From positions 1 through 31,627 of IMG/VR virus record IMGVR_UViG_3300010885_018700: 31,627 nt of DNA. One strand, 5' to 3'. Shown here piece after piece: positions 4,420 to 24,800 of the stretch. Position 1 is the stretch's first letter; each line of letters opens with the position of its first letter. A model generated the notes under the pieces. That model ran no database searches and was not told the origin of the DNA. It saw only the letters and a list, made by a program, of their open reading frames with translations. Made by a program: the position numbers and the translations under genes. Source of the DNA: a virus.

Positions 4420-6768
4420 TTATCTTTGTCCGTATGTAAAATTATTTCTACTACTTCTTTCCGAAGAAGCCGCTATACCTGCCATAACTTTTTGTCCATC
4501 TAAAAATGTGTTTGTTACTATCTTACCGCTACTCATATCCGCTCTTAATGCTTTCATTTCAGTTATTAAAGCATTTACTGCTTTATCACTACCACCCATT
4601 CCCATAGATAATATAGATGGTTGTGTTGCATTTGATGCTTCTTTAAGTTTTGAAATTGCGTTTGGTGCAACTGCGATTTGGTCATTTGGAGATGGATTAA
4701 ATATACCACCTTCCTCTGTTGATATTTGCACCCCTTTTCCTGATTTAATAGCCATATCCCCTACATCCGTACCACCTTTACTATAAGCTGCCATAATTGC
4801 CGCTGTTGCTCCCACTGCTAAAGCAATACCAATAACACCCATTTTACTATTTGTCCATGCACTCATCAAAGCCTCTTTCATCTTAAGTAATGCAGTCTTT
4901 TTACTTAAAATATACATTGTTGTCAATCCTGCTATAATTGCTGGAAATAATCCGGGTATATAATTTAATACTTTAAATATTCCTCCAAATACATTTCCTA
5001 TTATTGTCACAACCGGTGCTAATGCTTCCATTAATGGTAATAATCCTTCACCAACAGATGCAACAATACCCTTAAATGAATTTTCCATTTGAGTTATCTT
5101 ATCTGCAATTTCTTCCTCTTTTGCTAATTGTTGAGTTTTAGCTTTTAATTGGTCATCTGTCATATTTGTAATATCCAGACCCTTATCCATAGCAGCTGAC
5201 ATTCTTTTTTGTTCAACTTCACTTAAATCTCCTAATTTTTCTTGAATTAATAATTGTTTAGTAATTTGTTCAACAGTCATACCTGCTGCATCTGCTAATG
5301 CTTTTTTAGTAAACATATCCTGGTCAGAAAACTTACCACTTCTTTCAATTTGTCTTAGTATTTCTTTTTGTGCATCAACATGCTTACCAGCATATGCCAA
5401 TGCTCTAGCTTGAGATAAATTGAATTGTCCACCTACAAATGTTGCAGCTACTAATTCTTTCTCAATACCATTTTCAAAATCAAGTAAATCTTCTGTTGTT
5501 TTTAATACGTCTTTTAATGTAGTACCCAATCTTCTAGCTTCAATAGCTTGTTTAGCAATAAGATTTACATCACCTTTAAAATATGTAAAAGTACTTTCAG
5601 CAGAGTCTGCTATATCTTTAAATACCTTAGATGGAGCAACACCTGCTAAGTTAGCCATATCAGCTACTTGTTGTGATACACTCTGTGCAGTAGCATCACT
5701 TAACCCAGCCATACTTTGAAAAATCATATTTACAGCTGCGGCATCTGTTTGAGCAATTCCAAAGTTTTTATTTAATACAGCTATATTAGCCGCTACTGCT
5801 TTTGATACTGGAATTACATCTCCAAATTCACCTTTAAATGCAGCAATACTATCATATGCAACTTCCGCATCAACACCTAATTTAGCAAAATCAACCGAAA
5901 TACTATGTGCATCTTTTTGAATTTGCTTTGTTTGAGAATTAGTTAAACCAGTTTCTTCTCTAAACTTTTTACCAGCTGCCTGTATTTCACTAAACGATAC
6001 CAATGCTGCCGCAAATAATGCTCCCATTATTACAATAGGACCAAGTCCACTTGAAATACCTTTAGCTAATTTCTTAGCCATATCAACACCATCTTGTAAA
6101 AATGCTGGCAATCTTTGATATAAATCATCTGCTTCTTCTTGTATCTTTGTTAATCTTTCGTTTTGTGATATTAAATTTTCATTTAATTTATACAAATCAG
6201 TTAGTTTCTTTTTTTCTGCAGGTCCTAAATCAGCTATACTTTCTTCAAAATGCATCCTTCTACTAGCTTGTTCAGTAACACCCAATAATTCATTTTTAGT
6301 TTGTGCAGCTGCTTCGGCTTGGTTAGTAATAGATGTATATAAATTTGAATACACATCTAATTTTCGTTGACTAACTTTTAATTCATCTTCAGATAAACCA
6401 GCTTGCTGGTCTTTCATATCTAATATATCTGCTGCAAGAGATGCAAATGCAGTACTACCTATTTTATTAGTAGATATTAATTTTCTAGCACCGGCATCTA
6501 ATTTTGTAAAAGATGATTGTAGAGTATCCTGTAAATCACTATATTCTTCTGCTAATGTATTTTGTTCTTCTAATGGTTTTACTTGTTTTTGTAAAGTCTT
6601 TAATTTTTCTTTCTCCCTCTCAATACGTTTTTCAAGCTTTTTACGCTCTTCCGCACCAACAACCGCAGCCTTTTTATTTTGCTCCTCAATACGTTGATTA
6701 GTTTCTTCAATTTCTCTAAGAAGGTCTAACCTAAGTTCATCTGCACTATCTGATAGTTTTTCAGCCAT
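4420..6768 (-). CDS. Tail tape measure protein (gp29-type role)
   Basis: A 782-residue protein. The N-terminus (about 5-90) is a charged coiled coil (RIEEQNKKAAVVGAEERKKL, KRIEREKEKLKTLQKQ). A hydrophobic stretch occurs at 241-260 (LGPIVIMGALFAAALVSF), and a second long hydrophobic region at 572-622 (LLPLMEALAPVVTIIGNVFG and following) with another at 643-662 (MGVIGIALAVGATAAIMAAY). The middle is helical with many Ala, Gln and Lys residues. This plan, long and helical with membrane-active patches and placed between the chaperone gene and the tube-cap gene, is that of phage tape measures, which set tail length and take part in DNA delivery. T4 gp29 is 590 residues, so a tail at least as long as that of T4 is plausible. 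It ends in SRNNFTYGQR. The start at 6768 lies 13 bases after the stop of the 80-aa gene. Confidence 0.85.
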   Translation of the reverse strand: MAEKLSDSADELRLDLLREIEETNQRIEEQNKKAAVVGAEERKKLEKRIEREKEKLKTLQKQVKPLEEQNTLAEEYSDLQDTLQSSFTKLDAGARKLISTNKIGSTAFASLAADILDMKDQQAGLSEDELKVSQRKLDVYSNLYTSITNQAEAAAQTKNELLGVTEQASRRMHFEESIADLGPAEKKKLTDLYKLNENLISQNERLTKIQEEADDLYQRLPAFLQDGVDMAKKLAKGISSGLGPIVIMGALFAAALVSFSEIQAAGKKFREETGLTNSQTKQIQKDAHSISVDFAKLGVDAEVAYDSIAAFKGEFGDVIPVSKAVAANIAVLNKNFGIAQTDAAAVNMIFQSMAGLSDATAQSVSQQVADMANLAGVAPSKVFKDIADSAESTFTYFKGDVNLIAKQAIEARRLGTTLKDVLKTTEDLLDFENGIEKELVAATFVGGQFNLSQARALAYAGKHVDAQKEILRQIERSGKFSDQDMFTKKALADAAGMTVEQITKQLLIQEKLGDLSEVEQKRMSAAMDKGLDITNMTDDQLKAKTQQLAKEEEIADKITQMENSFKGIVASVGEGLLPLMEALAPVVTIIGNVFGGIFKVLNYIPGLFPAIIAGLTTMYILSKKTALLKMKEALMSAWTNSKMGVIGIALAVGATAAIMAAYSKGGTDVGDMAIKSGKGVQISTEEGGIFNPSPNDQIAVAPNAISKLKEASNATQPSILSMGMGGSDKAVNALITEMKALRADMSSGKIVTNTFLDGQKVMAGIAASSERSSRNNFTYGQR

Positions 6769-6781
6769 TAATTTCTATATA

Positions 6782-7024
6782 TTAATTGTAATCCATTGGT
6801 ATCATTCCCCAACTCTGAAACATTTTAAACATTTCAGGTTTTTCATCTCTAAGTTTATCAATCTCTGGCTTATACTTTGAATTTAATTTATCCACATCAG
6901 CCTTCAATCTTTTTAAAGTAGGGTCTTTATCAATCAATTGTTGAAGTTTAGCAGGTGTAGATTTTTTGGTAAATAATCCAAAAAATTCCTTTAATTGATG
7001 TTTTTTTATTTTATATTTTGCCAT
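6782..7024 (-). CDS. Small helical protein upstream of tape measure, unknown
   Basis: An 80-residue, Lys/Asp/Glu-rich and clearly helical protein (LKRLKADVDKLNSKYKPEID) ending in QSWGMIPMDYN. No family is recognised. It is the first gene after the terminator at 7074-7113 and lies directly upstream of the tape measure, so a partner role for the tape measure or in initiation-complex assembly is plausible from position only. The start at 7024 has the leader ATTATAAATAAGCGAATATT and no Shine-Dalgarno. The alternative is a non-virion assembly factor. Confidence 0.8.
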   Translation of the reverse strand: MAKYKIKKHQLKEFFGLFTKKSTPAKLQQLIDKDPTLKRLKADVDKLNSKYKPEIDKLRDEKPEMFKMFQSWGMIPMDYN

Positions 7025-7073: not shown

Positions 7074-7113
7074 AAAGTTAGGAATAAGAGTGTTATCTCT
7101 TAAACCTAACTTT
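7074..7113 (-). terminator. Intrinsic terminator overlapping the end of the chaperone unit
   Basis: On the minus strand AAAGTTAGG (7113-7105) pairs with CCTAACTTT (7082-7074), 9 bp. Inside it, after a symmetric 2x2 internal loop, TAAGAG (7102-7097) pairs with CTCTTA (7090-7085) around a 6-base loop. A run of six T residues (7076-7071) ends the structure. The stem begins within the last codons of the 55-codon frame ending at 7093, so the stop codon lies in the apical loop region. It separates the chaperone unit from the tape measure unit. Confidence 0.8.
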
Positions 7114-7260
7114 AGATGCGTTTGCAGATTGAGTTGCTTTATTATTTGCTTCAGCTTCTTTTTTCTTAGATTCTACTAATTTATTATAATAAAAAGTTCT
7201 AAGATACGTTGGCATTTTATACAATTCCATAATAGTGAATCCGTTACTATACTCCACCAT
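7093..7260 (-). CDS. Out-of-frame C-terminal extension of the tail assembly chaperone (candidate frameshift product)
   Basis: From the ATG at 7260 this frame encodes 55 residues: YSNGFTIMELYKMPTYLRTFYYNKLVE, then a Lys/Glu/Ala-rich tail. The same frame is open upstream to base 7317, just after a TAG at 7320-7318, so it overlaps the last 27 bases of the upstream 254-codon gene. Upstream of the ATG it reads GLAKNHSALLHTQIFE, which looks like part of the same domain. This suggests the natural product is a fusion made by a +1 (or -2) shift at the T7 run at 7309-7315, giving about 319 residues. The pattern matches the G/GT arrangement of tail assembly chaperones placed before the tape measure. Independent translation from the ATG is the alternative and has no Shine-Dalgarno support. 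A terminator stem overlaps its 3' end. Confidence 0.7.
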   Translation of the reverse strand: MVEYSNGFTIMELYKMPTYLRTFYYNKLVESKKKEAEANNKATQSANASKVRFKR

Positions 7261-7288
7261 CTCAAAAATTTGAGTATGAAGTAGTGCA

Positions 7289-8053
7289 CTATGATTCTTC
7301 GCCAGGCCAAAAAAAGCCTACACCCATTGGGATAGGTGCCTCCTCCACCTCACCATCTTCATGAGTATAACTAAATTTCATATTCATATCAGGAGATATT
7401 GATTTTACATAATCTCTAAATGCCTTACTATCTCTAGCTAAAAATGAATTATTTACAAATTTTGTAATAGCACCCATATCAGAATTACCATCCACACTTT
7501 TAATCATATATCTCAAACGAGTAGTGATTTCAAATGAAGTATCCTTATTTAATTTTTCTAAAGCTGTTATATCTTTATCAATTGCTAATTCATCACCATG
7601 TGTAAGTAATTTGAATGTTAATTTATTTTTTCCTGTTGGGGTTGTGAATTCAAATTCATTTTTATTATTAAATCCAGACATATCCACATCTTTTGTTGCT
7701 ACTTTTGATAAATCAACAGTAGTTTCTAATGATGTACTTGTTTTAGACGAATAAAATGATACTTTATAATCTGCACCATATCCCAATAAACGAGTTGCTA
7801 ATATAATAGCGTTTTTATCACCAACCAATATATCATTGATATTTACATCATCCACTATAATAGATTCAAATAATTTATCTAATACAATACCTTTTTTAAT
7901 AAGATTTGTAGAAGAAAGAATATCTTCCTCTTTTGCGGTCATATACTTAATTGTGATTCTACCAGAAGATAAAGGGTTTTCTTTTGGATATAATTTACCT
8001 TTAGATGGTAAATCCAACACTTCGGTTGGAAAATCAAATTGTTTTTCTGTCAT
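7289..8053 (-). CDS. T4 base-plate protein family (gp26/gp51-like), probable tail assembly chaperone
   Basis: A 254-residue protein with the start signature of the T4 base-plate protein family: LPSKGKLYPKENPLSSGRIT followed by the mixed helical IKYMTAKEEDILSSTNLIKKGIVLDKLFESII, then DVNINDILVGDKNAIILATRLLGYGADYKV. T4 members act in baseplate hub assembly. In this genome the gene sits between the tail tube and the tape measure, where most long-tailed phages carry their tape-measure chaperone. Frame 0 ends ...GFFWPGEES then TAG. A T7 run lies six codons before the stop, and the +1 frame is open from 7317 to 7095, so a longer product is likely (see the neighbouring 7093-7260 entry). The start at 8053 has an A/T-rich leader (CAAACTTAAAACAAGTAAAG). 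It is the first gene after the terminator at 8119-8143. Confidence 0.8.
   Translation of the reverse strand: MTEKQFDFPTEVLDLPSKGKLYPKENPLSSGRITIKYMTAKEEDILSSTNLIKKGIVLDKLFESIIVDDVNINDILVGDKNAIILATRLLGYGADYKVSFYSSKTSTSLETTVDLSKVATKDVDMSGFNNKNEFEFTTPTGKNKLTFKLLTHGDELAIDKDITALEKLNKDTSFEITTRLRYMIKSVDGNSDMGAITKFVNNSFLARDSKAFRDYVKSISPDMNMKFSYTHEDGEVEEAPIPMGVGFFWPGEES
7309..7315 (-). promoter_or_regulatory. Candidate slippery site (T7 run) for programmed frameshift
   Basis: In frame 0 the codons are GGC TTT TTT TGG CCT, with seven consecutive T residues at 7315-7309. The +1 frame is blocked by TAG at 7320-7318 and then free until 7095, while frame 0 stops at 7291-7289. Any shift must therefore fall within 27 bases, and the T run is the only homopolymer in that interval. 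Two Phe codons permit Phe-tRNA slippage by +1 or -2 with full re-pairing. An assembly or sequencing error in the homopolymer is the main alternative. Confidence 0.6.
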
Positions 8054-8164: not shown

Positions 8165-8668
8165 TTAGTATTCAAGAACAGCGTAATCGTAAGTTAATAC
8201 TAAATCGATTGTTGCTGGTTCATTTGCGTTACTAAAATCTACTTCACCAAATGTTGCTTGAGATATAAATGCTCCATGCAAAGTCCATTTTTCAATTTTA
8301 TCTCCAACCGGACCTAACATATAAAAGTTAATAGTCTTTTTGTAGAATTCTGCATATCCATCTCTACCAGTAATAGATTCATGTGATAAACGAATCCACT
8401 CCATTACTAATTGTGCCGCTGAAGGAACAATTGGGTCATATAAAGTGATATTCAAATCTTGCCATGTACCTTTACCTTTAAGTTTTCTTTGTACGTTAAT
8501 ATGGTCGATAGTAACAGTTTCAAAGTTAATTTGAGGTCTATTTGCTGTTTTAACCATATACGCTGGGATTCCCACATCTGTCATTTCCATGTAGTAGCGG
8601 TTCTTCATTTTTGGTTCGAACTGCTGGAAAATCATCTTATCGTACGGTAGTATTAATTCGTCTGCCAT
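8165..8668 (-). CDS. Tail tube protein, T4 gp19 family
   Basis: A 167-residue protein, close to the 163 residues of T4 gp19. It has the family layout: an N-terminal F-E-P-K-M-K-N-R-Y-Y-M-E-M strand, GIPAYMVKTANRPQINFE, the charged VQRKLKGKGTWQDLNITLYDP segment, LVMEWIRLSHE helix and a C-terminal GEVDFSNANEPATIDLVLTYDYAVLEY. Hexamers of this protein stack into the inner tube through which DNA passes. It follows the sheath gene by 53 bases and is followed by a strong terminator, so the two form a separate unit. The leader AAAATAAAAGGAATACAAC contains AAGGA, the closest thing to a Shine-Dalgarno seen near a start here, which would suit high expression. Confidence 0.93.
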   Translation of the reverse strand: MADELILPYDKMIFQQFEPKMKNRYYMEMTDVGIPAYMVKTANRPQINFETVTIDHINVQRKLKGKGTWQDLNITLYDPIVPSAAQLVMEWIRLSHESITGRDGYAEFYKKTINFYMLGPVGDKIEKWTLHGAFISQATFGEVDFSNANEPATIDLVLTYDYAVLEY

Positions 8669-8721: not shown

Positions 8722-11067
8722 TTATCCAGCAAATGATGCTCCAGTTGGTAAGATGTTGAAATCTATTACAATAAATTCCGCTGTCTTAGCCGGTTGAAGA
8801 AAAATTGCTCCCGCTAATATGTTTCTATCAATCACATCCGGTGTGTTATTAGAATCATCCATTACAACATTGAATGCGTACAAACCTTGTCTTTGTTGGA
8901 TACCCTCTAAGTAAGGAGTTACAGTGTTGATAAATCTATTTCTAGTCTCAGTAGTATTTTGTTCAAATACTAAATAACGAGATGTTGAAGCGATAAATTT
9001 CTTAACAGTGATTAGTAATCTTCTTACATTGATTCTATCTAATGCTGATGCTCTATCTTGCAAAGTCTTTTGTCCAAATGCTACGATACCTTGTCCAGGG
9101 AAAGTTGCAATTGGGTTTACTTTGTTCTCATATAAAGTATCTCTTTCAGAATGTGTTAATCTATTTAAAACACTAACTGCTCCAGTGATACCACCTCTAT
9201 TCAAACCAGCCGGTGCGAACCACTCTGCTGATAATCTATCACTACTAGCGAATACCGCTGGTAATAATGTAGATGGAGGTACAGTTGTAAGTTTGTTTGT
9301 GTTAGCATCTATTGTTTTCATCCAAGGATAGTAACAAGCTACATAGTTTGAATCCACTGCATTTGCTTGCTCAGTTGCTGTTGTAATATCAGCATCGTAG
9401 TCAGTAAAGTCAGCAATATAGAAACAATCTTGTCTATCTTCACACATATCAATAATCTTTTGTGTGATTGCTGGATGTAATTGTCTATTGATACCCGGCG
9501 CAACTACTAAGTTAATATCGTATTCATCAGGATTTCCTAAAGCGTTAATTCCTTTTGTATATCCTACTGAACCACTTGCGGTTGAACGATTACAATCTAA
9601 TCCCTGATTGTTTGCTGGTCCCCAATCAGAATCTCCAGCTTTAGCTACAGATACAGTTGGATTAACACCATCAAAACCACCTTGGAATGCTACTAAGAAT
9701 TGTCTTTTAACCATATCCACTGCAGCCGAACCAGTCATTTGGTATGTTAAACCCTGTGCACCATCAAAAGCAAATACTACGTTTGCACCAGCGTTTGCAT
9801 TATTAGGAATTGGTTTACAATATTGTTTATTATCCATTTCAATACCAGTACTTTCAAAATCAAAACCAGCATAATATACAGGAGATGATGATGTGTTATT
9901 TGCCGAACCGGTTTGGAAAACTACTGGAGGTACATAAGTATCTTCAGTTGCGTTGTTAGTTGTAATTGGATTAATATATGCAGCGTGTCCAAATGGTGCT
10001 GCTGAAATTGGGAATGAACCTTCAGATACTACTTCAACTCTAAAGTTGGTTGATTTATTTGAGTAATCACCATATTCGGTTATTTTACCATTATTATCAA
10101 TTGTAAAATATCTATCACCAACTACTCTAGCTATATATCTTGGAGAAGATGAATCTAAGTTTACATTGTTGTAAGTTTCAACTACACTCTTTCTCTTATC
10201 AGTATCACCAAATGTTCTTAACGTTACAGTAAATGTTGCGTAATCAGTTGAACCATCTTCACCAGCTGCTTTAACATTTGATATACCAACTTTAAATTTA
10301 GTATTATAGGTGTTACCATGTCCATTACTATGGAAACGGAAAAGGTCATATCTTTCACCACTTACTATTTGTGATTTAATCCAAGGAGTAGATGCTACTT
10401 GTGCATCGTATGCAAAGTTTTGTGTTGGTAAATTTAATTCACTTATTCTTACACCATTTAAACCATCATTGATTGAACCAGTATATAATAATGCTGCGTT
10501 TTCAAAGAAAGTGTAAGCGTATGCTGCTTTAGCTCCAAATGGAGATTCACCAAATACATCTGCTAAATCATTTGTAGCGGATGCTAAAATTGATGCAGAT
10601 ACACTAGCTACAGCTGAACCAGAACTAACTTTTCCAGATATTACAAATGAACCAGATATGGTTGCACTAGCTGTAATATTTGTATCAATTGCTGTAAATC
10701 CAACTCCTTCATCACCAAATTTAGTTGAGTGTAAAGTACCAATTATTTTTGTACCAAGAGAACTTGATACTAAAATTCCCAAAGGTGCTACTTGTTGATA
10801 TCCACCGATACCAGCTACTCTTACTACTGTTGCTGCTCCAGCTTCTCTTAAATAGTTTTGTACTGCATATTCAGTATAATATGTTCCATCAGGTGTGCCG
10901 AAGATGTTCTCAAATTCGGATTGAGTTCTCACAATAGTTGGAACGAATGCGGGTCCTTGCTTAAAAGGTCCTATAAATGCTGCCCCAATTTCTCCTATTC
11001 CTTGTGCTAAGAATGATAGGTCATTTTCTCTTGTGAATACGCCAGGTGATACGATTCTTTCTGCCAT
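8722..11067 (-). CDS. Contractile tail sheath protein, T4 gp18 family
   Basis: A 781-residue protein, longer than the 659 residues of T4 gp18. The N-terminus MAERIVSPGVFTRENDLSF and FIGPFKQGPAFVPTIVRTQSEFENIFG are sheath hallmarks. The conserved C-terminal domain ends RYLVFEQNTTETRNRFINTVTPYLEGIQQRQGL...DRNILAGAIFLQPAKTAEFIVIDFNILPTGASF, the part that forms the inner, tube-contacting mesh. Residues about 128-162 are an unusual Ser/Ala/Thr-rich stretch (TNITASATISGSFVISGKVSSGSAVAS) similar in style to the fibre modules encoded upstream; it probably lies in an exposed variable domain. The gene is first in a two-gene unit with the tube protein, after a hairpin at 11141-11188. The start has the A-rich leader AATTGTAGAAACAAA. 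Confidence 0.95.
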   Translation of the reverse strand: MAERIVSPGVFTRENDLSFLAQGIGEIGAAFIGPFKQGPAFVPTIVRTQSEFENIFGTPDGTYYTEYAVQNYLREAGAATVVRVAGIGGYQQVAPLGILVSSSLGTKIIGTLHSTKFGDEGVGFTAIDTNITASATISGSFVISGKVSSGSAVASVSASILASATNDLADVFGESPFGAKAAYAYTFFENAALLYTGSINDGLNGVRISELNLPTQNFAYDAQVASTPWIKSQIVSGERYDLFRFHSNGHGNTYNTKFKVGISNVKAAGEDGSTDYATFTVTLRTFGDTDKRKSVVETYNNVNLDSSSPRYIARVVGDRYFTIDNNGKITEYGDYSNKSTNFRVEVVSEGSFPISAAPFGHAAYINPITTNNATEDTYVPPVVFQTGSANNTSSSPVYYAGFDFESTGIEMDNKQYCKPIPNNANAGANVVFAFDGAQGLTYQMTGSAAVDMVKRQFLVAFQGGFDGVNPTVSVAKAGDSDWGPANNQGLDCNRSTASGSVGYTKGINALGNPDEYDINLVVAPGINRQLHPAITQKIIDMCEDRQDCFYIADFTDYDADITTATEQANAVDSNYVACYYPWMKTIDANTNKLTTVPPSTLLPAVFASSDRLSAEWFAPAGLNRGGITGAVSVLNRLTHSERDTLYENKVNPIATFPGQGIVAFGQKTLQDRASALDRINVRRLLITVKKFIASTSRYLVFEQNTTETRNRFINTVTPYLEGIQQRQGLYAFNVVMDDSNNTPDVIDRNILAGAIFLQPAKTAEFIVIDFNILPTGASFAG

Positions 11068-12540: not shown

Positions 12541-15500
12541 TTAACTATTTTCTAAATTTTCAATTCTCTCTAATAAATATTCGTTTTGTGCTTTTAAGAA
12601 ATTAACTTCATTTCTTAATTCTTTAACCGATTGTACAAGTACAGGTATTAAAGATTCCATAGAAAGCGTTAATAATCCACTCTTTTCATCAGTCCTTACT
12701 AATGTAGGGAATACTTCTTGAACGTTTTGAGCTGTAAAACCCATTTTGATATTAGTATCTTCTACAAATTCTGGGTCCAATGAATGCATCTTATATGTGT
12801 AGTAGATAGGTGTTAAATTATCCACTTTATCAAGTACATCCGTAATTACTCCATGTATATTTTTTACTGATGCATCGGAGTATCCAGACCAACCATAGTA
12901 ATATTGATATAGTACTACTCCACCATATGAACCCCCACCACACAACATATACATAGCGTTGTATCCATCAGTTTGTCCTATCCAGTTATACCCACCAGAA
13001 GAACGATAATAAATACCAAATCCACTTCCAGCATCAATATTACCATCTGAATTGTAGTTCATATTAATGAAGTTACGGAATCTTACAGAACCCTGAATAT
13101 TAAATCTAATAAATCCATAAGTAGTTGAATCGACCGATGCACAGTTATTAGGTCTACTATAATAATAACTCCACCCATTACCATTTTGTACATAGATACC
13201 ACCATTACCACTCTCAAACATCAAGTTGTTGTAATAACCAGATGGGTCATTTACAAGCATACCACCATAACCACCTCTATAATATCCAAATGTTTGATAA
13301 CAACCATACGATGAATCAAAGTTAGTTCTAATATGAGAACCATATGATTGGTTGTATAAACCCCCACCACCTTGGTTTCTAAACCATCCATTTGCATAAA
13401 CCTCTTGGAATGTAGGCGAAGCATCACTTCTTACACTTTGGTTTACGTTATTACTCATCCAACCCAAATATGCCAACCAAAGGTTATTATCATTTATATA
13501 CGCACCTTCACTTCCGTTAGGATTTCTGAATATAAAGTATCCCCATTGTTGTCTTTGGAAATATAAGTGAGAACTATGCCATTGTATTTTGTAATATTCC
13601 CCAGTCCATCCACCAGGATCAGAATACAACATATAACCCGGTCTGATATATAAGTTATTTGTATATACTGCATTTAAACTTGAAGTACCATTAGGGTCAC
13701 AATAATATCCCGTATCATTTGAATCATAGAATATAGGAGAACGTGCTGAACCAACCATATAGGTATATCCTCTATATACGTTAAATGCTCCACCATCCCA
13801 ATACCAAATCCAACTATAACGGTTATCATGTACACCTACGTTATCACCGGTTGTACTCATAAAACAATGCGTACTAGCTATACCCCAGCCATACCATCCG
13901 TTTCTACCACCACCATAAGTTGCTACGTGTCCATATGAGTTTCCAGCACCTTCAGGTGAAAAGAAACCTCTACCATACGGCTCCCAATAGAAACCATTTG
14001 AAGTATTTTGTCTATACCATGCGTTTGAATAAATATCACCAGCAGTTAATGAACGAGTTCCACCACCAGTACCAATTCTAACACCAGGATATCCTCTATA
14101 ATAAACTAACTCCAATGGGTCAGAATCGTATCCAGAGTTTACAGTATCTCTATATGAGTTTGTACCAATTGCACCATAGTTACCATCACCTCTATAATAC
14201 ACATTGTAAATATACATTGTGTTAAGATGAGATGTACCAGCAAAATCTCCATAATAGTTTGTATCATTTGAATCATAAAAATAAGGTGCTCTTAAGGAGT
14301 TTGCACCTTCCAAGTAATTGTAAACATATGTATAGTTTATACCCCAATATTGGTTTGTATAACGAGTACCAGATGTATTGGTATTATAAAGAACCATACC
14401 ACCATCTTGTTCAAAACGAATATATCCTTGTCCGTGGTTTGTATTTAATCTACCCCAATAATATGTGTTTGTATATTGGTTTGATGAGTTATCCACATTA
14501 TATCCAATACCAGCTCCATTCCAAGTATTACCCGGTTCAGAACACCACATTTGCATATGAACATCACCTTGTCCAGATCCATTATTAGCTGCTGCTAATG
14601 TTACACGCAATCTACTATTTCCGTGGTCACCAGTAACATGCAATCTAGTTGATGGTAATGCGTATCCAACTCCCAATTGCCACAATCTACTATCACCATT
14701 GGGGTCTACTCTATATGCCGAATCATCCCAATCATACCAAATATTAAAATATCCACTAGCACCCCTTAAAGTATTGTATGGTCCCATGTATAATTGAACA
14801 TCCGTTGCGCCTGCATATCCTTGAGTTGCTTGCGTACTATTGACTTGGTCTAATCTCCAACCATGCGTACTATATGTACCAAATCCACCTCTACCAGCAC
14901 CAGGCCAGTTTTGAATATAAGATGCTGAGTTATAATACGAATCATTTACACTATATGATTGAGCCCAAACGTTTTGAAGAACCGATAATCCTGCAGGGTC
15001 TGAATAATAATTTGTGTCATCTCTATCATAGAATCTATAAGAATAGACGTTTCCGCCCGTATATAAGTTATTAGTTATTCTTACGTTTGAATCACCTGCA
15101 CCAACACTCATTAGTTCCGTAGTGCTAACACCCGGAGAATCATTCATAAAACGAGTACCACCATATGATGGATTGCCTCCAATTTCAACACCAGTATGCC
15201 ATCCTAAAGTCAAACGAGTATGTGTAGAGTATCCATTATTATATGGAGATTTTACATACATTAAATAGTAAGGTACGCCATCATTTCTTTGCCCAGATGT
15301 AATACCGGTGGATGAACCAACCGCAGATGGGTCAGATGTTGAAGTTGATAAATTTATATGTCTAGTGTTACCACTATTAATTCCTTTTTGGAATAAAAAC
15401 GTTCCCCCTTGGTCATAAAAAGTATCACCATATATTGAAGGTGCTCTAAATGATGTTGCTGCGTAAGCATTACCATCACCATATGCAGAGAATACTACAC

Positions 15501-18500
15501 TTGACCATGCTCTATCCACTACCTCAAATCTAGTGTTACCACTACCACCTAATTGTAATGTTGAAATACCTGTTGCTCTATCAGCTGCTCTACCTATCCA
15601 AGCTTCACCACTATTATTTTGAGATTGTGCAAAAGAACCCATTCTAACCCAACCAGTTGGAGTAATATTACCAACAAATTGGAATGCTGATTGAGCATCT
15701 CTAAACACCGTAGTAGATGTTGTCTTTATAATATTAGAATAGTAAGATGAGTTTGATAAGCCTCTATAAGCGTAAGTACTACCAGTTGATTTTACACCAT
15801 CTGCTCTTACTAAAGTTACCATAGCATCACCATCAGTATATCCAGCATATCCGGCGTTGTTATAACCACCAATATGGAATACAGGGTGAGCAGTGTTACC
15901 ACTATCTCTATTCAGTACTAATAAACCATCATTTACATTATAGTTATAAATTGCAGTTGCCCAAGCTTCACCAGACATAACTTCATTTGTACTTCTAAAG
16001 TACACACCAGCTGCATCATTACTATTTGTTGCTTGTATAGTTGAAAATGAAACATTATCAGATGTTCTAACATACTGATTCATAGTGTATGCGTAAACCT
16101 GGTCAATACTATTTAATAATTGTTGCCAAGCATTCCAAGTTGTTGCAGTACTTCCAAGTCTAGTCCATAATCTACCAGCAGCAGTATATGCAATTTGAAT
16201 TGGCATTCCCCCACTTAAATCAGTACTACTACCATAACTTCTCCAATACATTTGTCCGTTATATGAACCACCATCACTCAATCCATTTGTACCATTTCCT
16301 TTAAAATCAAAACGAATTATGTTATTAAATGATTGTGGTAAATCATTTGTACTACGTGTATCTTGCGAATATATATTGTATGTATATGTTGATGAACCAG
16401 CTGAACTTACACTAAAGTTTGATGGATTCCAAGGATACATATTCACACCATCATTCGTTCCCCAAACATAAGTTGGCTGACCTGATTGTCCTGAATAAAT
16501 AAAATCTATGTTTGTTCCGTCTGAACGTCTTGGATATGTTCTAATTCCCCATTGTCCACTATTATAAACTACTTGAGTTCCAGTATTGTATCCATTACCA
16601 CCCACATACATTTGTCCAGCTGCATATAAATCTCCACCAGTACTTATTGATGATTTTACCGATGCACTTCCATTAGTATAAAAATATAAAGCGTATCCAG
16701 TTTCAGCCCATAAAGCTGGGTCATAGTTTGCATTACCTTCCCATAATCCTCTACGAGTAAATCCACCAACGTTTGCACTTCCGGCTGCATTTCTTATTCT
16801 AAATCCACTACTTGTTTGTGCATCAAAGTATGCTGTTCCTGTTACACCAGCAAATGTTACAGCATCCGTAGTTCTTACGTTTTGATTCATTGCGTATAAC
16901 TCATTGGCACCTTGTCCAGTATCAACAGTAGAGAATGTTACTGCATCTGATGTACGAATATTTTGGTTCATTAAATAAACCTCTGTTGCTCCTTGTCCAG
17001 TATCTATTGTACCACTTAATGTTATATTACCGGCACCTACTGAAAGGTTACCACCAGTTACACTTACACCATTTGTTGCTGTAATTGTTGCATGAGTAAC
17101 GTTATCGGTTGTACGAATATTTTGGTTCATTAAATAAACCTCTGTTGCTCCTTGTCCAGTATCTATTGTACCTGTTATTACAACGTTACCACTACCACCA
17201 ATATTACCTGCTACATAAAAATCAGTATCAGAATACCATCTTAATCCACTTTCATTCCAATAAAATTGTCTTGTTGCTTGATTTCCTCTCTTAACTTCTA
17301 TACCAGCATTTTCAGTTGGTGTAGTTGATGCGCCAATATCCGCATTTAATGTAATAATATTATCACCTATGTTAAGAGTTGTTGTATTAATATATGTTGT
17401 TGTACCACTCACAGTAAGGTCACCAGTAATTGTAGCGTTACCGGTTACCGTAAGTAATGTACCATCAAAAGTTAAATTTGATTCAACAGTTCCATTTGGT
17501 GCACTTCCGTTTAAAGTAATTACACCATTATCAGTTGTACCTGTTAATGCTAATAATCCAGATGTACCAGATGTACCACGTGTTCCTGATGACCCAGAAG
17601 TTCCTGATGACCCAGAAGTTCCCGATGTGCCAGAACTTCCCGATGTGCCAGCCGTTCCACCAGTACCACTACTTCCCGATGTGCCACTCGTACCACTAGA
17701 GCCGCTTGTACCACTACTTCCAGAAGTTCCTGATGTACCTCCACTACCAGCTGTACCAGCCGTTCCTGCCGTGCCAGATGTACCAGCCGTGCCAGATGTA
17801 CCAGCTGAACCCGTTGAGCCGGATGTTCCACCACTACCAGCTGAACCAGATGTTGCTGATGTTCCTGATGTTGCTGAAGTTCCCGATGTACCAGATGTAC
17901 CAGCTGAGCCAGACGTTCCTGTTGTACCACTACTTCCGCTTGTGCCTGCTGAACCTGATGTGCCGGATGTACCTGCTGAACCCGATGTGCCCGTTGTACC
18001 ACCACTTCCAGAAGTTCCTGTTGTACCGCTTGACCCAGCTGTTCCAGCTGTGCCAGATGTACCTCTTGTTCCTGATGTACCTGCACTGCCGCTTGTACCA
18101 TCAATACCAGATGTACCTGCGCTTCCAGATGTTCCAGATGTGCCGCCACTTCCAGATGTTCCGGTTGAACCTCCACTTCCAGAAGTTCCTGTTGAGCCGC
18201 TTGTTCCAGAACTTCCCGATGTACCTCCAGACCCAGATGTGCCTGCCGTTCCACCTGTCCCAGCTGTTGCTGACGTACCTGCCGTTCCTCCACTTCCAGA
18301 AGTTCCTGTTGTGCCGCTTGTTCCAGAAGTTCCTGATGTTCCAGCACTACCACCCGTTCCACCAGCTCCACTTAATCCTGATGTTCCTCCACTTCCAGTT
18401 GACCCAGATGTTCCAGAACTTCCTGATGTACCGCTACTACCAGACGTACCGGCTGAGCCACCAGCACCAGTTATACCACCACTACCATTTGTTCCTGATG

Positions 18501-19731
18501 TACCACCAGATCCCGATGTACCATCTCTACCAGATGTGCCACTACTTCCTGATGTACCACTACTACCCGTCAATCCCGATGAACCCGTTGTTCCCGATGA
18601 GCCAGTTGTTCCACTACTTCCTCCACTACCAGATGTTCCCGATGAGCCGCTTGTACCAGAACTTCCTGATGTGCCTCCCGTACCACTACTACCATCAGTG
18701 CCACTTGTACCACTACTGCCAGAAGTTCCCGATGAACCAGATGTTCCGGAGGTGCCTCCACTTCCCGATGTTCCGTTTGAACCCGTTGTGCCAGCAGTTC
18801 CCGATGTGCCACCACTTCCAGATGACCCAGACGTTCCTGTTGTGCCAGATGTACCAGAACTTCCCGATGTACCTCCCGTACCACTTGAGCCACCACTACC
18901 AGATGAACCAGACGTTCCCGATGTGCCACCACTACCAGAAGTTCCTGATGACCCGGTTGTACCACTACTACCCGTTGTGCCAGATGTACCAGCCGAGCCA
19001 GTTGTACCAGAAGTTCCTGATGTTCCAGATGATGCTGCTGCATATTTTCTACCAACTATACCAGTTACAGTATTATATACTAATACTTCATCCGTTGATG
19101 AATCATTTGGAAAATTTCCAACTCTTAAACTACCAGAAAGTAAAACACTTCCTGTTATAGCTACACTACCAGTAAATTCTTGCTTATCAGTTAATTGGTC
19201 ACCAAATTTAGATGAACCAGTTGTATAAATTATTGAAGATGAAATATATTGAGTAAATAATTCCGTTGTTGTAATTTTACCACCAACAGTTAAATCAGTT
19301 GTTATGATAGCTGAACCTGTTACAGTTAAATTGCCAGCAATAGCTGTTTTAACATTAATTTCCAATCCTTTGTTTGGAGATATTACACCTTGAGCTGAAC
19401 CTGATTTAATTCTATCCACATCACCAATTGCTGATGCTGGAATATTTGTTATACCACTACCATCACCAACTAAATTAGCATATACCGTAGATGCTGATAC
19501 GAATGAGCTTACATTTAATGAACCTGTTATTTGCTCATTTGCTTTTATTTGTAAAGGTGAACCATTTGATGTACCAATTACATTAGATTGTACAGCCGAT
19601 GCTGTAAAATTTCCTACAACACTTACGGATTCGGATGAAGCATTTAAAATAGAAGAACCACTTACAAAAAGTGATACACTATTAATACTATTTTGATTTA
19701 TACCATTAGGGTTTTTACCTTCAAACTTCAT
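12541..19731 (-). CDS. Long tail fibre with Gly-X-Y shaft and C-terminal S74 self-cleaving chaperone
   Basis: A 2,396-residue fibre. Residues 1-230 are fibre modules (TGSLNVSS, GDGSGITNIPASA, SGSAQGVISPNKGLEIN, LTVGGKITT). Residues about 234-725 are Gly-X-Y triplets with X and Y nearly always Ser, Thr, Ala or Gly and no Pro. Next comes a linker starting LTGTTDNGVITLNG and three repeats of TGQGA-x-E-x-Y-x-MNQN-[IV]-RT. The long region to about 2280 is Tyr/Asn/Gly-rich and beta-like, with four FYDSNDTxYYxDP-type repeats. The last 112 residues are a peptidase S74/intramolecular chaperone domain: SDASVK at 2285-2290 supplies the Ser and Lys (5 apart) of the known cleavage dyad, followed by MGFTAQNVQEVFPTLV and a coiled coil (VKELRNEVNFLKAQNEYLLE). 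The chaperone trimerises the fibre and is then released. The start is preceded by AAAATAAAATATAGATTTA. Confidence 0.92.
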   Translation of the reverse strand: MKFEGKNPNGINQNSINSVSLFVSGSSILNASSESVSVVGNFTASAVQSNVIGTSNGSPLQIKANEQITGSLNVSSFVSASTVYANLVGDGSGITNIPASAIGDVDRIKSGSAQGVISPNKGLEINVKTAIAGNLTVTGSAIITTDLTVGGKITTTELFTQYISSSIIYTTGSSKFGDQLTDKQEFTGSVAITGSVLLSGSLRVGNFPNDSSTDEVLVYNTVTGIVGRKYAAASSGTSGTSGTTGSAGTSGTTGSSGTTGSSGTSGSGGTSGTSGSSGSGGSSGTGGTSGSSGTSGTTGTSGSSGSGGTSGTAGTTGSNGTSGSGGTSGTSGSSGTSGSSGTSGTDGSSGTGGTSGSSGTSGSSGTSGSGGSSGTTGSSGTTGSSGLTGSSGTSGSSGTSGRDGTSGSGGTSGTNGSGGITGAGGSAGTSGSSGTSGSSGTSGSTGSGGTSGLSGAGGTGGSAGTSGTSGTSGTTGTSGSGGTAGTSATAGTGGTAGTSGSGGTSGSSGTSGSTGTSGSGGSTGTSGSGGTSGTSGSAGTSGIDGTSGSAGTSGTRGTSGTAGTAGSSGTTGTSGSGGTTGTSGSAGTSGTSGSAGTSGSSGTTGTSGSAGTSGTSGTSATSGTSATSGSAGSGGTSGSTGSAGTSGTAGTSGTAGTAGTAGSGGTSGTSGSSGTSGSSGTSGTSGSSGTGGTAGTSGSSGTSGTSGSSGTSGSSGTRGTSGTSGLLALTGTTDNGVITLNGSAPNGTVESNLTFDGTLLTVTGNATITGDLTVSGTTTYINTTTLNIGDNIITLNADIGASTTPTENAGIEVKRGNQATRQFYWNESGLRWYSDTDFYVAGNIGGSGNVVITGTIDTGQGATEVYLMNQNIRTTDNVTHATITATNGVSVTGGNLSVGAGNITLSGTIDTGQGATEVYLMNQNIRTSDAVTFSTVDTGQGANELYAMNQNVRTTDAVTFAGVTGTAYFDAQTSSGFRIRNAAGSANVGGFTRRGLWEGNANYDPALWAETGYALYFYTNGSASVKSSISTGGDLYAAGQMYVGGNGYNTGTQVVYNSGQWGIRTYPRRSDGTNIDFIYSGQSGQPTYVWGTNDGVNMYPWNPSNFSVSSAGSSTYTYNIYSQDTRSTNDLPQSFNNIIRFDFKGNGTNGLSDGGSYNGQMYWRSYGSSTDLSGGMPIQIAYTAAGRLWTRLGSTATTWNAWQQLLNSIDQVYAYTMNQYVRTSDNVSFSTIQATNSNDAAGVYFRSTNEVMSGEAWATAIYNYNVNDGLLVLNRDSGNTAHPVFHIGGYNNAGYAGYTDGDAMVTLVRADGVKSTGSTYAYRGLSNSSYYSNIIKTTSTTVFRDAQSAFQFVGNITPTGWVRMGSFAQSQNNSGEAWIGRAADRATGISTLQLGGSGNTRFEVVDRAWSSVVFSAYGDGNAYAATSFRAPSIYGDTFYDQGGTFLFQKGINSGNTRHINLSTSTSDPSAVGSSTGITSGQRNDGVPYYLMYVKSPYNNGYSTHTRLTLGWHTGVEIGGNPSYGGTRFMNDSPGVSTTELMSVGAGDSNVRITNNLYTGGNVYSYRFYDRDDTNYYSDPAGLSVLQNVWAQSYSVNDSYYNSASYIQNWPGAGRGGFGTYSTHGWRLDQVNSTQATQGYAGATDVQLYMGPYNTLRGASGYFNIWYDWDDSAYRVDPNGDSRLWQLGVGYALPSTRLHVTGDHGNSRLRVTLAAANNGSGQGDVHMQMWCSEPGNTWNGAGIGYNVDNSSNQYTNTYYWGRLNTNHGQGYIRFEQDGGMVLYNTNTSGTRYTNQYWGINYTYVYNYLEGANSLRAPYFYDSNDTNYYGDFAGTSHLNTMYIYNVYYRGDGNYGAIGTNSYRDTVNSGYDSDPLELVYYRGYPGVRIGTGGGTRSLTAGDIYSNAWYRQNTSNGFYWEPYGRGFFSPEGAGNSYGHVATYGGGRNGWYGWGIASTHCFMSTTGDNVGVHDNRYSWIWYWDGGAFNVYRGYTYMVGSARSPIFYDSNDTGYYCDPNGTSSLNAVYTNNLYIRPGYMLYSDPGGWTGEYYKIQWHSSHLYFQRQQWGYFIFRNPNGSEGAYINDNNLWLAYLGWMSNNVNQSVRSDASPTFQEVYANGWFRNQGGGGLYNQSYGSHIRTNFDSSYGCYQTFGYYRGGYGGMLVNDPSGYYNNLMFESGNGGIYVQNGNGWSYYYSRPNNCASVDSTTYGFIRFNIQGSVRFRNFINMNYNSDGNIDAGSGFGIYYRSSGGYNWIGQTDGYNAMYMLCGGGSYGGVVLYQYYYGWSGYSDASVKNIHGVITDVLDKVDNLTPIYYTYKMHSLDPEFVEDTNIKMGFTAQNVQEVFPTLVRTDEKSGLLTLSMESLIPVLVQSVKELRNEVNFLKAQNEYLLERIENLENS
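12544..12879 (-). other. S74 intramolecular chaperone domain, predicted cleavage just before Ser2285
   Basis: This encodes residues 2285-2396 of the fibre. In endosialidase-type fibres the catalytic Ser and Lys lie five residues apart within S-D-x-x-x-K, and cleavage occurs directly before the Ser. The same spacing occurs here (Ser codon 12879-12877, Lys codon 12864-12862). The GFTAQ(N/D)V motif and terminal coiled coil are also present, so self-release of a chaperone of about 112 residues is predicted. Confidence 0.85.
13665..15040 (-). repeat. Four dispersed FYDSNDTxYYxDP-type protein repeats in the S74 fibre
   Basis: Copies encoded at about 14975-15040 (FYDRDDTNYYSDPAG), 14680-14740 (WYDWDDSAYRVDPNG), 14215-14290 (FYDSNDTNYYGDFAG) and 13665-13738 (FYDSNDTGYYCDPNG). 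Each is followed by a Ser/Leu turn and a new beta stretch. Such motifs recur in other S74-ending phage fibres and mark boundaries between beta repeats. The conserved acidic residues could bind a metal ion, which is inference. Confidence 0.7.
16951..17172 (-). repeat. Exact 63-bp direct repeat in the S74 fibre gene
   Basis: Bases 16951-17013 and 17110-17172 are identical by eye, spaced 159 bases apart, encoding GTIDTGQGATEVYLMNQNIRT twice. A third, diverged protein copy (TVDTGQGANELYAMNQNVRT) lies just downstream in the gene near 16885-16935. This indicates a recent internal duplication. Confidence 0.85.
17557..19031 (-). repeat. Gly-X-Y repeat shaft of the S74 fibre
   Basis: About 490 codons in which every third residue is Gly and the others are nearly all Ser, Thr, Ala or Gly (e.g. 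GTSGSSGTSGSGG), with rare Asp, Asn, Arg, Leu or Ile. There is no Pro, unlike animal collagen, so stability would have to come from Thr/Ser contacts, glycosylation or a polyglycine-II-like packing. The antisense strand reads as Pro-rich open frames only because Gly codons reverse to Pro-like ones. Confidence 0.9.
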
Positions 19732-21828: not shown

Positions 21829-24800
21829 TTAACTTAAATTTTTACCAGTTACAAATCCGTAATATGTTGTGCCACCATCATAAGTATAGAATACTAAAAC
21901 ATCAATACCAGATGATGTTAATATTGGTGCACTTCCACCAACCCATTTAATAGTAGGCCAAGTAATTGAATATGCTCCAGCGTTTATAGCAACTAACGTA
22001 AATCCAAACGCCTTAGTAACAGGTGCTTGTGCAAATGTTAATGTTGCTGCTCCATTAAATTGTCTTCTAAAGTTATTTGCTGTTGATAAATCTAATGTTG
22101 CACTTCCTCCTGTTCCTAAATCAGAATAGGTTTCTCTATATGTTGTAGAACTTACATATCCACTAGCTCCAAAATTTCCAGTTAAAGTTATATCACCTGT
22201 TTGTGTAATATTACCACTCAATCCTAATGTAGTTCCATCGAAAGTTAAATTATTTTCAACAGTTGCATTTGGTGGAGTTCCATTTAATGTGATTACACCA
22301 TTATCAGTTGTACCACTTAATAATAATGTACCAGATGTACCATTTGAACCAAGTCCAGATGTACCAGATGTTAAACCCGGAACAGAAGTTCCAGAAGTTC
22401 CCGATGTAATACCAGGCGTAGATGTACCCGAAGACCCACCACTACCAGACGTTCCACTACTTCCAAAGAATGTACCATTTACACCAGACGAACCCGATGT
22501 ACCATTTGTTGCAGATGAGCCGGATGAGCCAGCTGTACCCGTTGTACCATTCGTTCCCGATGTGCCTCCCGTACCTGTACTACCAGAAGTTCCACTACTT
22601 CCAAAGAATGTACCATTTAAACCAGATGACCCAGATGAACCAGCTGATCCTGATGTACCACTTACTCCCGATGAGCCAGTTGAACCATCCGTACCTGATG
22701 TACCTCCAGAGCCCGTGCTACCATCCGTACCCGATGTACCATTTGTTCCAAAAAATGTTCCGTTTATACCAGACGAACCAGTTGAACCAGATGAGCCAGC
22801 GGAGCCTGATGTACCATTTGAGCCTGATGTACCATCGTGTCCATCAGTACCAGACGAACCATTAGAGCCCGATGTACCAGATGAACCTTCAGCTGATGTA
22901 CCAGATGACCCAGTAGTTCCTGATGTGCCATTTGAACCCGTAGTTCCTGATGTTCCTGTTGAGCCACTACTTCCGCTACTTCCTGCTGTACCAGACGAAC
23001 CAAAAAATGTACCATTTAATCCAGATGACCCAGATGTTCCGGTTGTACCACTACTTCCTGCTGTTCCTGTTGTGCCATTTGAGCCACTACTTCCAGATGA
23101 ACCAGATGAGCCAAAGAATGTACCATCTAATCCAGAAGTTCCCGTTGACCCAGAAGAACCACTACTGCCGCTTGTACCAGTCGAACCACTACTGCCGCTT
23201 GAACCAGACGAACCACTACTTCCAGATGAACCAAAAAAAGTTCCATCTAAACCAGATGAACCAGAAGAGCCATCAATACCACTACTACCTGATGTACCCG
23301 TTGAGCCCGATGTACCAGATGTGCCAGACGAACCTTGTGTTCCAGACGAACCCGATGTACCTGTTGAGCCGGTTGTACCACTTGAGCCAGTTGAACCAGA
23401 TGTTCCAGATGAGCCAGCAGTACCCGTTGAACCATCCGTGCCGCTTGAACCAGATGTTCCTGAAGTACCACTACTACCCGATGTGCCCGTTGAACCAGTT
23501 GAACCACTACTTCCAGAAGAGCCTGCTGAACCAGTTGAACCATCAGTTCCACTACTTCCACTTGTGCCATCAATACCAGATGAGCCGGATGTACCAGCCG
23601 AGCCAGACGAACCATTCGAACCCGTCGAACCAGATGACCCAGATGAACCAGCCGTTCCTGTTGAACCATCAGTTCCACTACTGCCATTTGAACCACTACT
23701 TCCACTGCTTCCACTGCTTCCACTACTTCCCGATGAACCCGTTGTTCCAGCAGAACCATTTGAGCCGCTTGTACCAGATGACCCAGCAGAACCGCTACTT
23801 CCATCAGTACCAGATGACCCAGCACTTCCCGATGAGCCTGTTGTGCCAGAAGTTCCAGCAGAGCCCGTTGAACCAGAAGTTCCCGATGAGCCGCTTGTAC
23901 CAGATGACCCAGCAGAACCACTACTTCCATCAGAACCAGATGTACCACTACTTCCCGATGTACCCGTTGTGCCAGATGTACCAGCCGAGCCAGATGTACC
24001 AGCCGAGCCAGATGTTCCTGTTGAACCACTACTTCCACTACTTCCAGATGAGCCACTACTTCCAGATGAACCATCACTACCGCTAGTTCCAGATGACCCG
24101 CTTGAACCAGAAGTTCCTGATGAACCGCTTGAACCACTGCTTCCAGATGTGCCATCCGTACCACTTGTTCCCGAAGAGCCACTTGTACCAGATGTACCAC
24201 TACTACCGGTTGAGCCACTACTTCCACTACTTCCAGACGAGCCACTACTTCCACTAGTTCCAGACGAACCAGATGAACCGGATGAGCCACTTGAACCTGT
24301 TGTACCACTACTACCAGTCGTACCACTAGTGCCAGATGTTCCATCCGAACCTGATGTTCCCGATGTACCATTTTTTCCCGATGTGCCAGACGTACCATCC
24401 GTACCTCTAGCTCCCGTAGAACCAGACGTTCCTGATGAGCCAGACGTTCCCGATGAACCAGCTTGTCCGCTACTACCAGAACTTCCCGATGTTCCATCAC
24501 GTCCACTACTACCAGCTGTTCCCGATGTGCCAGACGTTCCCGAAGAGCCAGCCGTACCATTTGAACCCGTTGTACCTGAAGAACCAGATGTGCCAGATGT
24601 TCCCGAAGAGCCAGCCGTACCATTTGAACCCGTTGTACCAGATGACCCGGTTGTACCATTTGAACCCGTTGAACCAGATGTACCTGCGGTTCCTGATGAA
24701 CCTGATGTGCCAGCAGTTCCACTACTACCTGATGTACCTTCTGAGCCCGTAGTTCCAGCTGAACCATTAGTTCCACTACTTCCACCACTTCCAGATGACC

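Follow-up and report, generated by a model that had tools for sequence, protein, structure and literature searches.

The tail assembly chaperones (TACs) of phages lambda (G/GT), P2 (E/E') and Mu are encoded between the tail tube and the tape measure protein, and are made in a short form and in a frameshift-extended form whose extension has no start codon (Xu, Hendrix, Duda 2004). The shift is mostly −1 in these systems, and −2 in Mu. The G-T frameshift was described as widely conserved "except T4" by Atkins et al. 2016 (PMC5009743), and the TAC genes of T4-like phages were identified by Vladimirov, Gautam and Davidson (Virology 2022, as cited in PMC12846349 and PMC10885494), so this kind of system is already known. 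Here we analyse a TAC-like gene and its out-of-frame extension in a viral DNA stretch of 31,627 nucleotides (IMG/VR record IMGVR_UViG_3300010885_018700, positions 1 to 31,627; hereafter the window). From comparisons of sequences, this one gene probably gives rise to two chaperone forms, TAC-N and TAC-NC, through a +1 frameshift at the heptamer TTT TTT T, and the frameshift itself is almost certainly programmed. Many relatives keep the slip site together with an upstream motif and a hairpin, and it therefore looks like a deliberate tail-building device.

The arrangement in T4 is different. Genes 26 and 51 of T4, which reportedly encode the short (TAC-N) and the long (TAC-NC) chaperone, are two separate paralogous genes, whereas the window has one gene with a continuation in the +1 frame. 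Frameshifting is also said to be kept in several T4-like groups. The family (phrog_150/PF12322) and the two-product logic are shared with T4, and so, probably, is the C-terminal domain, which is linked to that of T4 through a cyanophage profile. A preliminary description of the locus, made from the window alone, knew of no frameshift described for the T4 base-plate protein family, a view that the 2022 identification, as it is cited, makes outdated.

Two overlapping frames and a T run

The elements discussed below, all on the minus strand, are as follows.

7289..8053, minus: short TAC gene (TAC-N, gp26-like), 0 frame, 254 codons, stop TAG 7291-7289
7093..7314, minus: +1-frame extension (TAC-C, gp51 C-terminal-like), 73 residues, FFG to RFKR, then stop TAA
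7309..7315, minus: candidate slip site TTT TTT T(GG), seven Ts, read Phe-Phe-Trp in the 0 frame
7321..7338, minus: predicted RNA hairpin CACCUAU-CCCA-AUGGGUG of 7 bp, between GGAGG and the T run
7339..7346, minus: Shine-Dalgarno (SD)-like GGAGG (7346-7342), here extended to GGAGGAGG, 26 nt upstream of the T run

The 254-codon gene ends in ATG GGT GTA GGC TTT TTT TGG CCT GGC GAA GAA TCA TAG. A second frame, +1 relative to this gene, begins directly after an in-frame TAG (7320-7318), is open from 7317 to 7096 and reads AFFGLAKNHSALLHTQIFEMVEYSNGF...KVRFKR before its stop at 7095-7093. It has no start codon of its own. Because the +1 frame is closed upstream of 7317 by that TAG and the 254-codon gene ends at 7289, any frameshift must fall within the overlap of the two frames, which is 29 nt with the 0-frame stop included; a one-base step at the T run gives a fusion of 319 residues. 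Re-reading the frames bore out the second frame and its position just after the TAG as given in the preliminary description, along with its fusion of about 319 residues and its TTT TTT T within the overlap (exactly 7315-7309), but its overlap of 27 bases has to be corrected to 29 nt.

Both frames are conserved in relatives

We compared 178 related loci in 94 sequence clusters. The slip site and the +1 frame are kept from 100% down to about 26-33% identity. In 80 viral contigs with identities of 70-100%, and in other loci with 33-82%, the 0 frame stops soon after FF[W/Y]P and the conserved extension goes on in the +1 frame. An extension of at least 55 codons is present in the +1 frame at 171/178 loci versus 3/178 for the −1 frame. 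Exactly seven in-frame Ts are present at 172/178 loci, and no other length occurs among these 172 in-frame runs. Both Phe codons are TTT in 94/94 clusters, while TTC makes up 21% of the Phe codons in the same genes; the chance of an all-TTT pair would be about 3e-20 for independent clusters, but their independence is incomplete. The codon that follows in the A site is TGG, TAC or TAT.

Homopolymers are error-prone, so could a sequencing or assembly error have split one continuous gene? The preliminary description had asked that this be excluded, and the relatives already refute it: 172/178 contigs, finished isolate genomes among them, keep the seven Ts, 171/178 have the long +1 extension, and variants that lack the homopolymer still show two frames. 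We regard the chance of such an error as negligible and reject it.

The extension is under purifying selection. The ratio of nonsynonymous to synonymous substitution rates (dN/dS) is 0.07 over its codons 12-44, with an overall range of 0.07-0.15, against 1.35 and 1.75 for the two control frames over the same extension. In the part of the extension that follows the 0-frame stop and precedes the first ATG, dN/dS is 0.09, and comparison of the sequences thus indicates that the extension evolves as protein, including the part ahead of any start codon. In addition, one codon ahead of the first TTT the +1 frame is already closed at 52/172 loci, and at 134/172 the 15 codons past the junction hold none of the starts ATG, GTG and TTG. 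Taken together, the dN/dS values, the closed +1 frame and the scarcity of starts argue strongly for a fusion. The dual-frame architecture is therefore conserved, with the overlap and T run that the preliminary description wanted compared kept across the 94 clusters, and its tail assembly chaperone with a candidate programmed frameshift is supported by the gene order (see below), the conserved frames and the conserved slip site.

Several loci without the run of seven Ts also keep the +1 frame. These are L225 (TTC TTT TAC), L003 (TTT CTA TTC), Streptococcus phage GXN1 (L004; TTC TTT CGT), SP-15 (TTT TTT CAC) and immuto (TTT CTT TGG). They bear on the idea that the polymerase, and not the ribosome, slips at the T run to yield mRNA with 6 or 9 U. 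A seven-T run on the coding strand would suit this idea, although seven is short for polymerase slippage. Because relatives without the run, with only three or four T, retain the downstream frame, we reject transcriptional slippage as extremely unlikely. Moreover, a T beside the run is avoided, the opposite of selection for longer runs: the base 5' of the run is T in 0/94 clusters versus 56.9 expected. A T there would create a −1 heptamer.

The extension is truncated or altered at three loci (L027, L028 and L245), which may reflect a deletion, the end of a contig or an error. In immuto (L001:4354-4464), RM378 (L088:4701-4877), SP-15 (L089:4812-4931) and Microcystis phage Mel-JY01 (L002:4249-4485), the +1 frame past the hub gene holds short annotated "hypothetical proteins", which are probably pieces of the chaperone extension. 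Annotation can be corrected accordingly in immuto, SP-15 and RM378, where the extension has been cut down to such short proteins. In the uncultured jumbo phage LR756511 (L005:3501-4263), TTT TTC TTC stands close to the end of a hub-family gene, and the −1 frame holds a gp51-like open reading frame (ORF) that has an ATG of its own, possibly a third arrangement.

A gp26-like domain followed by a gp51-like domain

The short product matches phrog_150 ("baseplate hub") in profile searches (E=2.1e-7) and PF12322 (T4_baseplate), a family that includes both T4 gp26 and gp51, at E=3.8e-5 and 23.9 bits, slightly below the cut-off of 24.5. The AlphaFold2 model of the 0-frame protein has a predicted local distance difference test (pLDDT) score of 89; its best viral matches are phage hub proteins, e.g. 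the Bacillus phage SP-15 baseplate hub subunit, at a template modelling score of about 0.8, and a model of a T4-type gp51 matches many of the same hub proteins in BFVD. On these profile and model comparisons, namely phrog_150, the near-threshold PF12322 match and the shared hub-protein matches, the N-terminal domain is homologous to T4 gp26. Profile comparison of the two N-domain alignments was weak (probability 42%). For the solved TAC fold, a PDB structure search returned no significant match, with the HK97 TAC 2ob9 at rank 20 (E=0.79, probability 0.57), and a PDB sequence search gave no relevant match.

The fused product carries the phrog_150 alignment on to position 281 of the 282 in the profile. 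The +1 extension matches the cyanophage gp51 domain (E=3.8e-7), which in turn matches the C-terminus of T4 gp51 (E=3.9e-9) and phrog_634 (E=7.9e-27). Compared directly by profile with the T4 gp51 C-terminus, the extension is not significantly similar (E=0.15), and this counts against the assignment.

The neighbouring structural genes, also on the minus strand, place the gene within a tail module.

8722..11067, minus: tail sheath protein (phrog_23, E=3e-73, and PF04984), upstream
8165..8668, minus: tail tube protein (phrog_4542, E=4.4e-30), upstream
4420..6768, minus: putative tape measure protein of 782 aa, by position only; the presumed chaperone client

The gene thus stands between the tail tube and the ORF at the tape measure position (sheath 8722, tube 8165, gene 7289, large ORF 4420). 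That large ORF has no family match in Pfam-type and phrog profile searches; phages immuto and SP-15 have the gene order of the window, with an annotated tape measure protein in that place. With sheath and tube upstream and the tape measure position downstream, the gene order is that of tail assembly chaperones, and from it we infer the chaperone function. As in G/GT-type systems, the window combines the tube/tape-measure position, a conserved extension in another frame without a start, and a slippery site (172/178); unlike most of those systems, +1 is the favoured direction here.

A distant GGAGG and a predicted hairpin precede the candidate slip site

The 94 clusters were scanned for conserved bases, with upstream positions counted back from the T run. 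GGAGG stands at −31..−27 in 67/94 clusters, where codon usage for the encoded amino acids predicts 1.5, and the Glu codon inside this site is GAG in 74/75 cases, although GAG is only 16% of Glu codons. Anywhere in −45..−18, GGAGG is found in 79/94 clusters versus 13/2068 background windows. An SD motif within 15 nt of the T run, as in prfB, occurs in only 6/94 clusters.

Between GGAGG and the T run, the window can form a hairpin of −6.4 kcal/mol whose 3' end is 5 nt short of the run. Over −24..−4, the mean folding energy is −4.86 kcal/mol versus −2.61 kcal/mol in a synonymous, GC-matched null, and the region is stabler than this codon-preserving null in 76/93 clusters (p=2.6e-12); in other windows of the gene the effect is small or absent. 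RNAalifold found no consensus structure on ungapped upstream windows, because the hairpin occurs in two registers that were mixed there. Once the registers are separated, pairing is 85% in the clade of the window, where sliding the register leaves 32-57%, and 82% in the other clusters; over both registers, sliding lowers it to 27-57%. Downstream of the slip site, no consistent stimulator structure was seen at eight loci (z-scores −1.8 to +0.3), and an Rfam search gave no match. The slip site, GGAGG and the hairpin are conserved beyond protein constraint.

GGAGG looks like a ribosome-binding site, which raises the question of whether the downstream frame is instead a separate gene, translated from its own start or by reinitiation without any fusion. 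In T4, an SD-hairpin arrangement in this very place starts gene 25 (PMC3014915), and 81/81 marine cyanophage-type loci (described below) have an ATG exactly 2 nt past the gp26 stop. Yet the window lineage has no conserved start codon in the +1 frame, protein selection extends back past the 0-frame stop, and a TTT stands where GGAGG and the hairpin would put a start. For this lineage a separate gene is very unlikely, and we reject it in favour of the fusion.

How could a motif so far upstream act? Under the proposed +1 mechanism, most ribosomes would end at TAG 7289 and release the 254-residue TAC-N (gp26-like), whereas a minority would slip +1 at TTT TTT T as tRNA-Phe re-pairs with the UUU one base on, giving the 319-residue TAC-NC with its gp51-like C-terminal domain. 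The hairpin would shorten the distance from GGAGG to the slip codon from 26 nt to about 8-12 nt, the accommodated SD contact would hold the ribosome over TTT TTT, and the hairpin would favour forward slippage. On 70S ribosomes, a hairpin refolding beside the E site stimulates +1 and attenuates −1 frameshifting (PMC6321510). In bacterial prfB, too, an SD-like element lies upstream of a +1 slip on NTT_T, and natural prfB variants with UUU slip codons exist (PMC12421855); influenza PA-X shifts +1 at UUU_CGU (PMC3498833). The role of GGAGG would be uncertain in Flavobacterium-like hosts, because SD sequences are seldom used in Flavobacterium johnsoniae and frameshifting at prfB is poor there (PMC12421855).

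Direction of the proposed shift

Shifts of +1 and −2 lead into the same frame. The "+1 (or −2)" of the preliminary description therefore stands as to the frame, and the sequence leaves the direction unsettled, with the variant sites favouring +1. A −2 shift at the same programmed site, as in phage Mu, would insert an extra Phe at the junction (GFFFGL versus GFFGL). It is natural in Mu (PMC3498833), a stretched SD contact favours backward shifts, and the invariance of the first TTT in 94/94 clusters is what −2 re-pairing needs. Against it, L225, L003 and GXN1 retain the downstream frame at sites where −2 re-pairing is poor and +1 re-pairing good. In L003, good re-pairing is possible only for +1; this locus has GGAGG at −31 and a hairpin of 7 bp, and L225 likewise bears GGAGG. 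An upstream hairpin, furthermore, drives +1 (PMC6321510). We consider −2 unlikely, and favour +1.

Several observations weigh against a +1 shift by this mechanism. With TGG or TAC, the A site holds a sense codon, which is weaker than the stop codon that prfB has there, and GGAGG is 26 nt from the slip site, with a hairpin between, compared with 3 nt in prfB. Covariation of the hairpin pairs is weak to modest, and the hairpin of the window itself is ordinary relative to dinucleotide shuffles (z=−0.73). A −2 shift requires the strict first TTT, whereas a +1 slip on the second TTT does not; the invariance of the first TTT may be a point for −2, or may reflect a second +1 slip position or an E-site effect. 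On balance, the ribosome probably shifts at the T run, and probably by +1, with GGAGG and the hairpin as likely stimulators.

Related signals in cyanophages and T4

The marine cyanophage-type set comprises 81 loci (L100, L104-L183). At the 3' end of their gp26 gene, the heptamer T TTT TTC is present in 81/81 with the gp51 domain in the −1 frame, which is open back through the heptamer in 81/81 and in three loci no further. GAG stands at −15 in 75/81 (GAG usage 20%), which gives a GAGGG resembling an SD sequence about 10 nt upstream; at a distance of 8-11 nt, such elements are known to stimulate −1 frameshifting (PMC6321510). Given this heptamer and the ATG just past the gp26 stop, either fusion through a −1 shift or reinitiation is possible in cyanophages. 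The window lineage differs from the cyanophage TACs in its slip site, [C/G/A]-TTT-TTT-T(GG/AC), and in having a distal GGAGG and a hairpin.

In T4, the gene 26-25 junction holds a split ribosome-binding site (Nivinskas 1999; Malys and Nivinskas 2009), in which a hairpin cuts the SD-to-AUG distance from 27 nt to 11 nt (PMC3014915). It resembles the window element in its SD-like motif, its hairpin and a functional codon about 27 nt downstream, and also in its place at the 3' end of a gp26-family gene (PMC3014915), but T4 starts gene 25 at an AUG, whereas in the window the codon is a Phe slip site without a start. The two RNA elements may share an origin. At the 3' end of T4 gene 26 (L086:6803-7429), the split site of gene 25 and its hairpin appear to cover the Phe-Phe codons where relatives shift.

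We give an even chance to a broader proposal, that the T4-type TAC family contains two natural frameshift signals between which the direction was switched. Cyanophages would use −1 at T_TTT_TTC with GAGGG about 10 nt upstream, and the window lineage +1 at TTT_TTT_T, never after a T. In the latter, a hairpin close to the E site would bring the distant GGAGG into register with the slip codon, i.e. a hairpin-spliced SD stimulator of +1 frameshifting on a sense A-site codon. In the literature searched, mostly without subscription journals, no description was found of such a stimulator, or of a +1 signal with GGAGG and hairpin in the lineage of the window.

Few +1 signals are known, and most rely on a stop or rare codon. 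The roughly 94 diverged phage clusters amount to a mutagenesis experiment done by nature on a +1 signal whose A-site codon is a sense codon. Three questions thereby come within reach of direct tests: in what way an SD-like motif far upstream and a hairpin at the back of the ribosome drive it forward, how −1 and +1 signals can replace each other in a lineage that keeps its chaperone pair, and how the device works in Flavobacterium-related hosts, which seldom use SD sequences.

Other features of the window

Between the chaperone extension and the putative tape measure gene lies an ORF of 80 residues (6782-7024, minus strand), and Mel-JY01 has a 71-residue ORF (L002:4542-4757) in the matching place. 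Very long fibre-like genes with Gly-Ser-Ser/Thr repeat tracts occupy 12541-19731 and 21829-31626 (minus strand), and these repeats give long spurious ORFs on the opposite strand.
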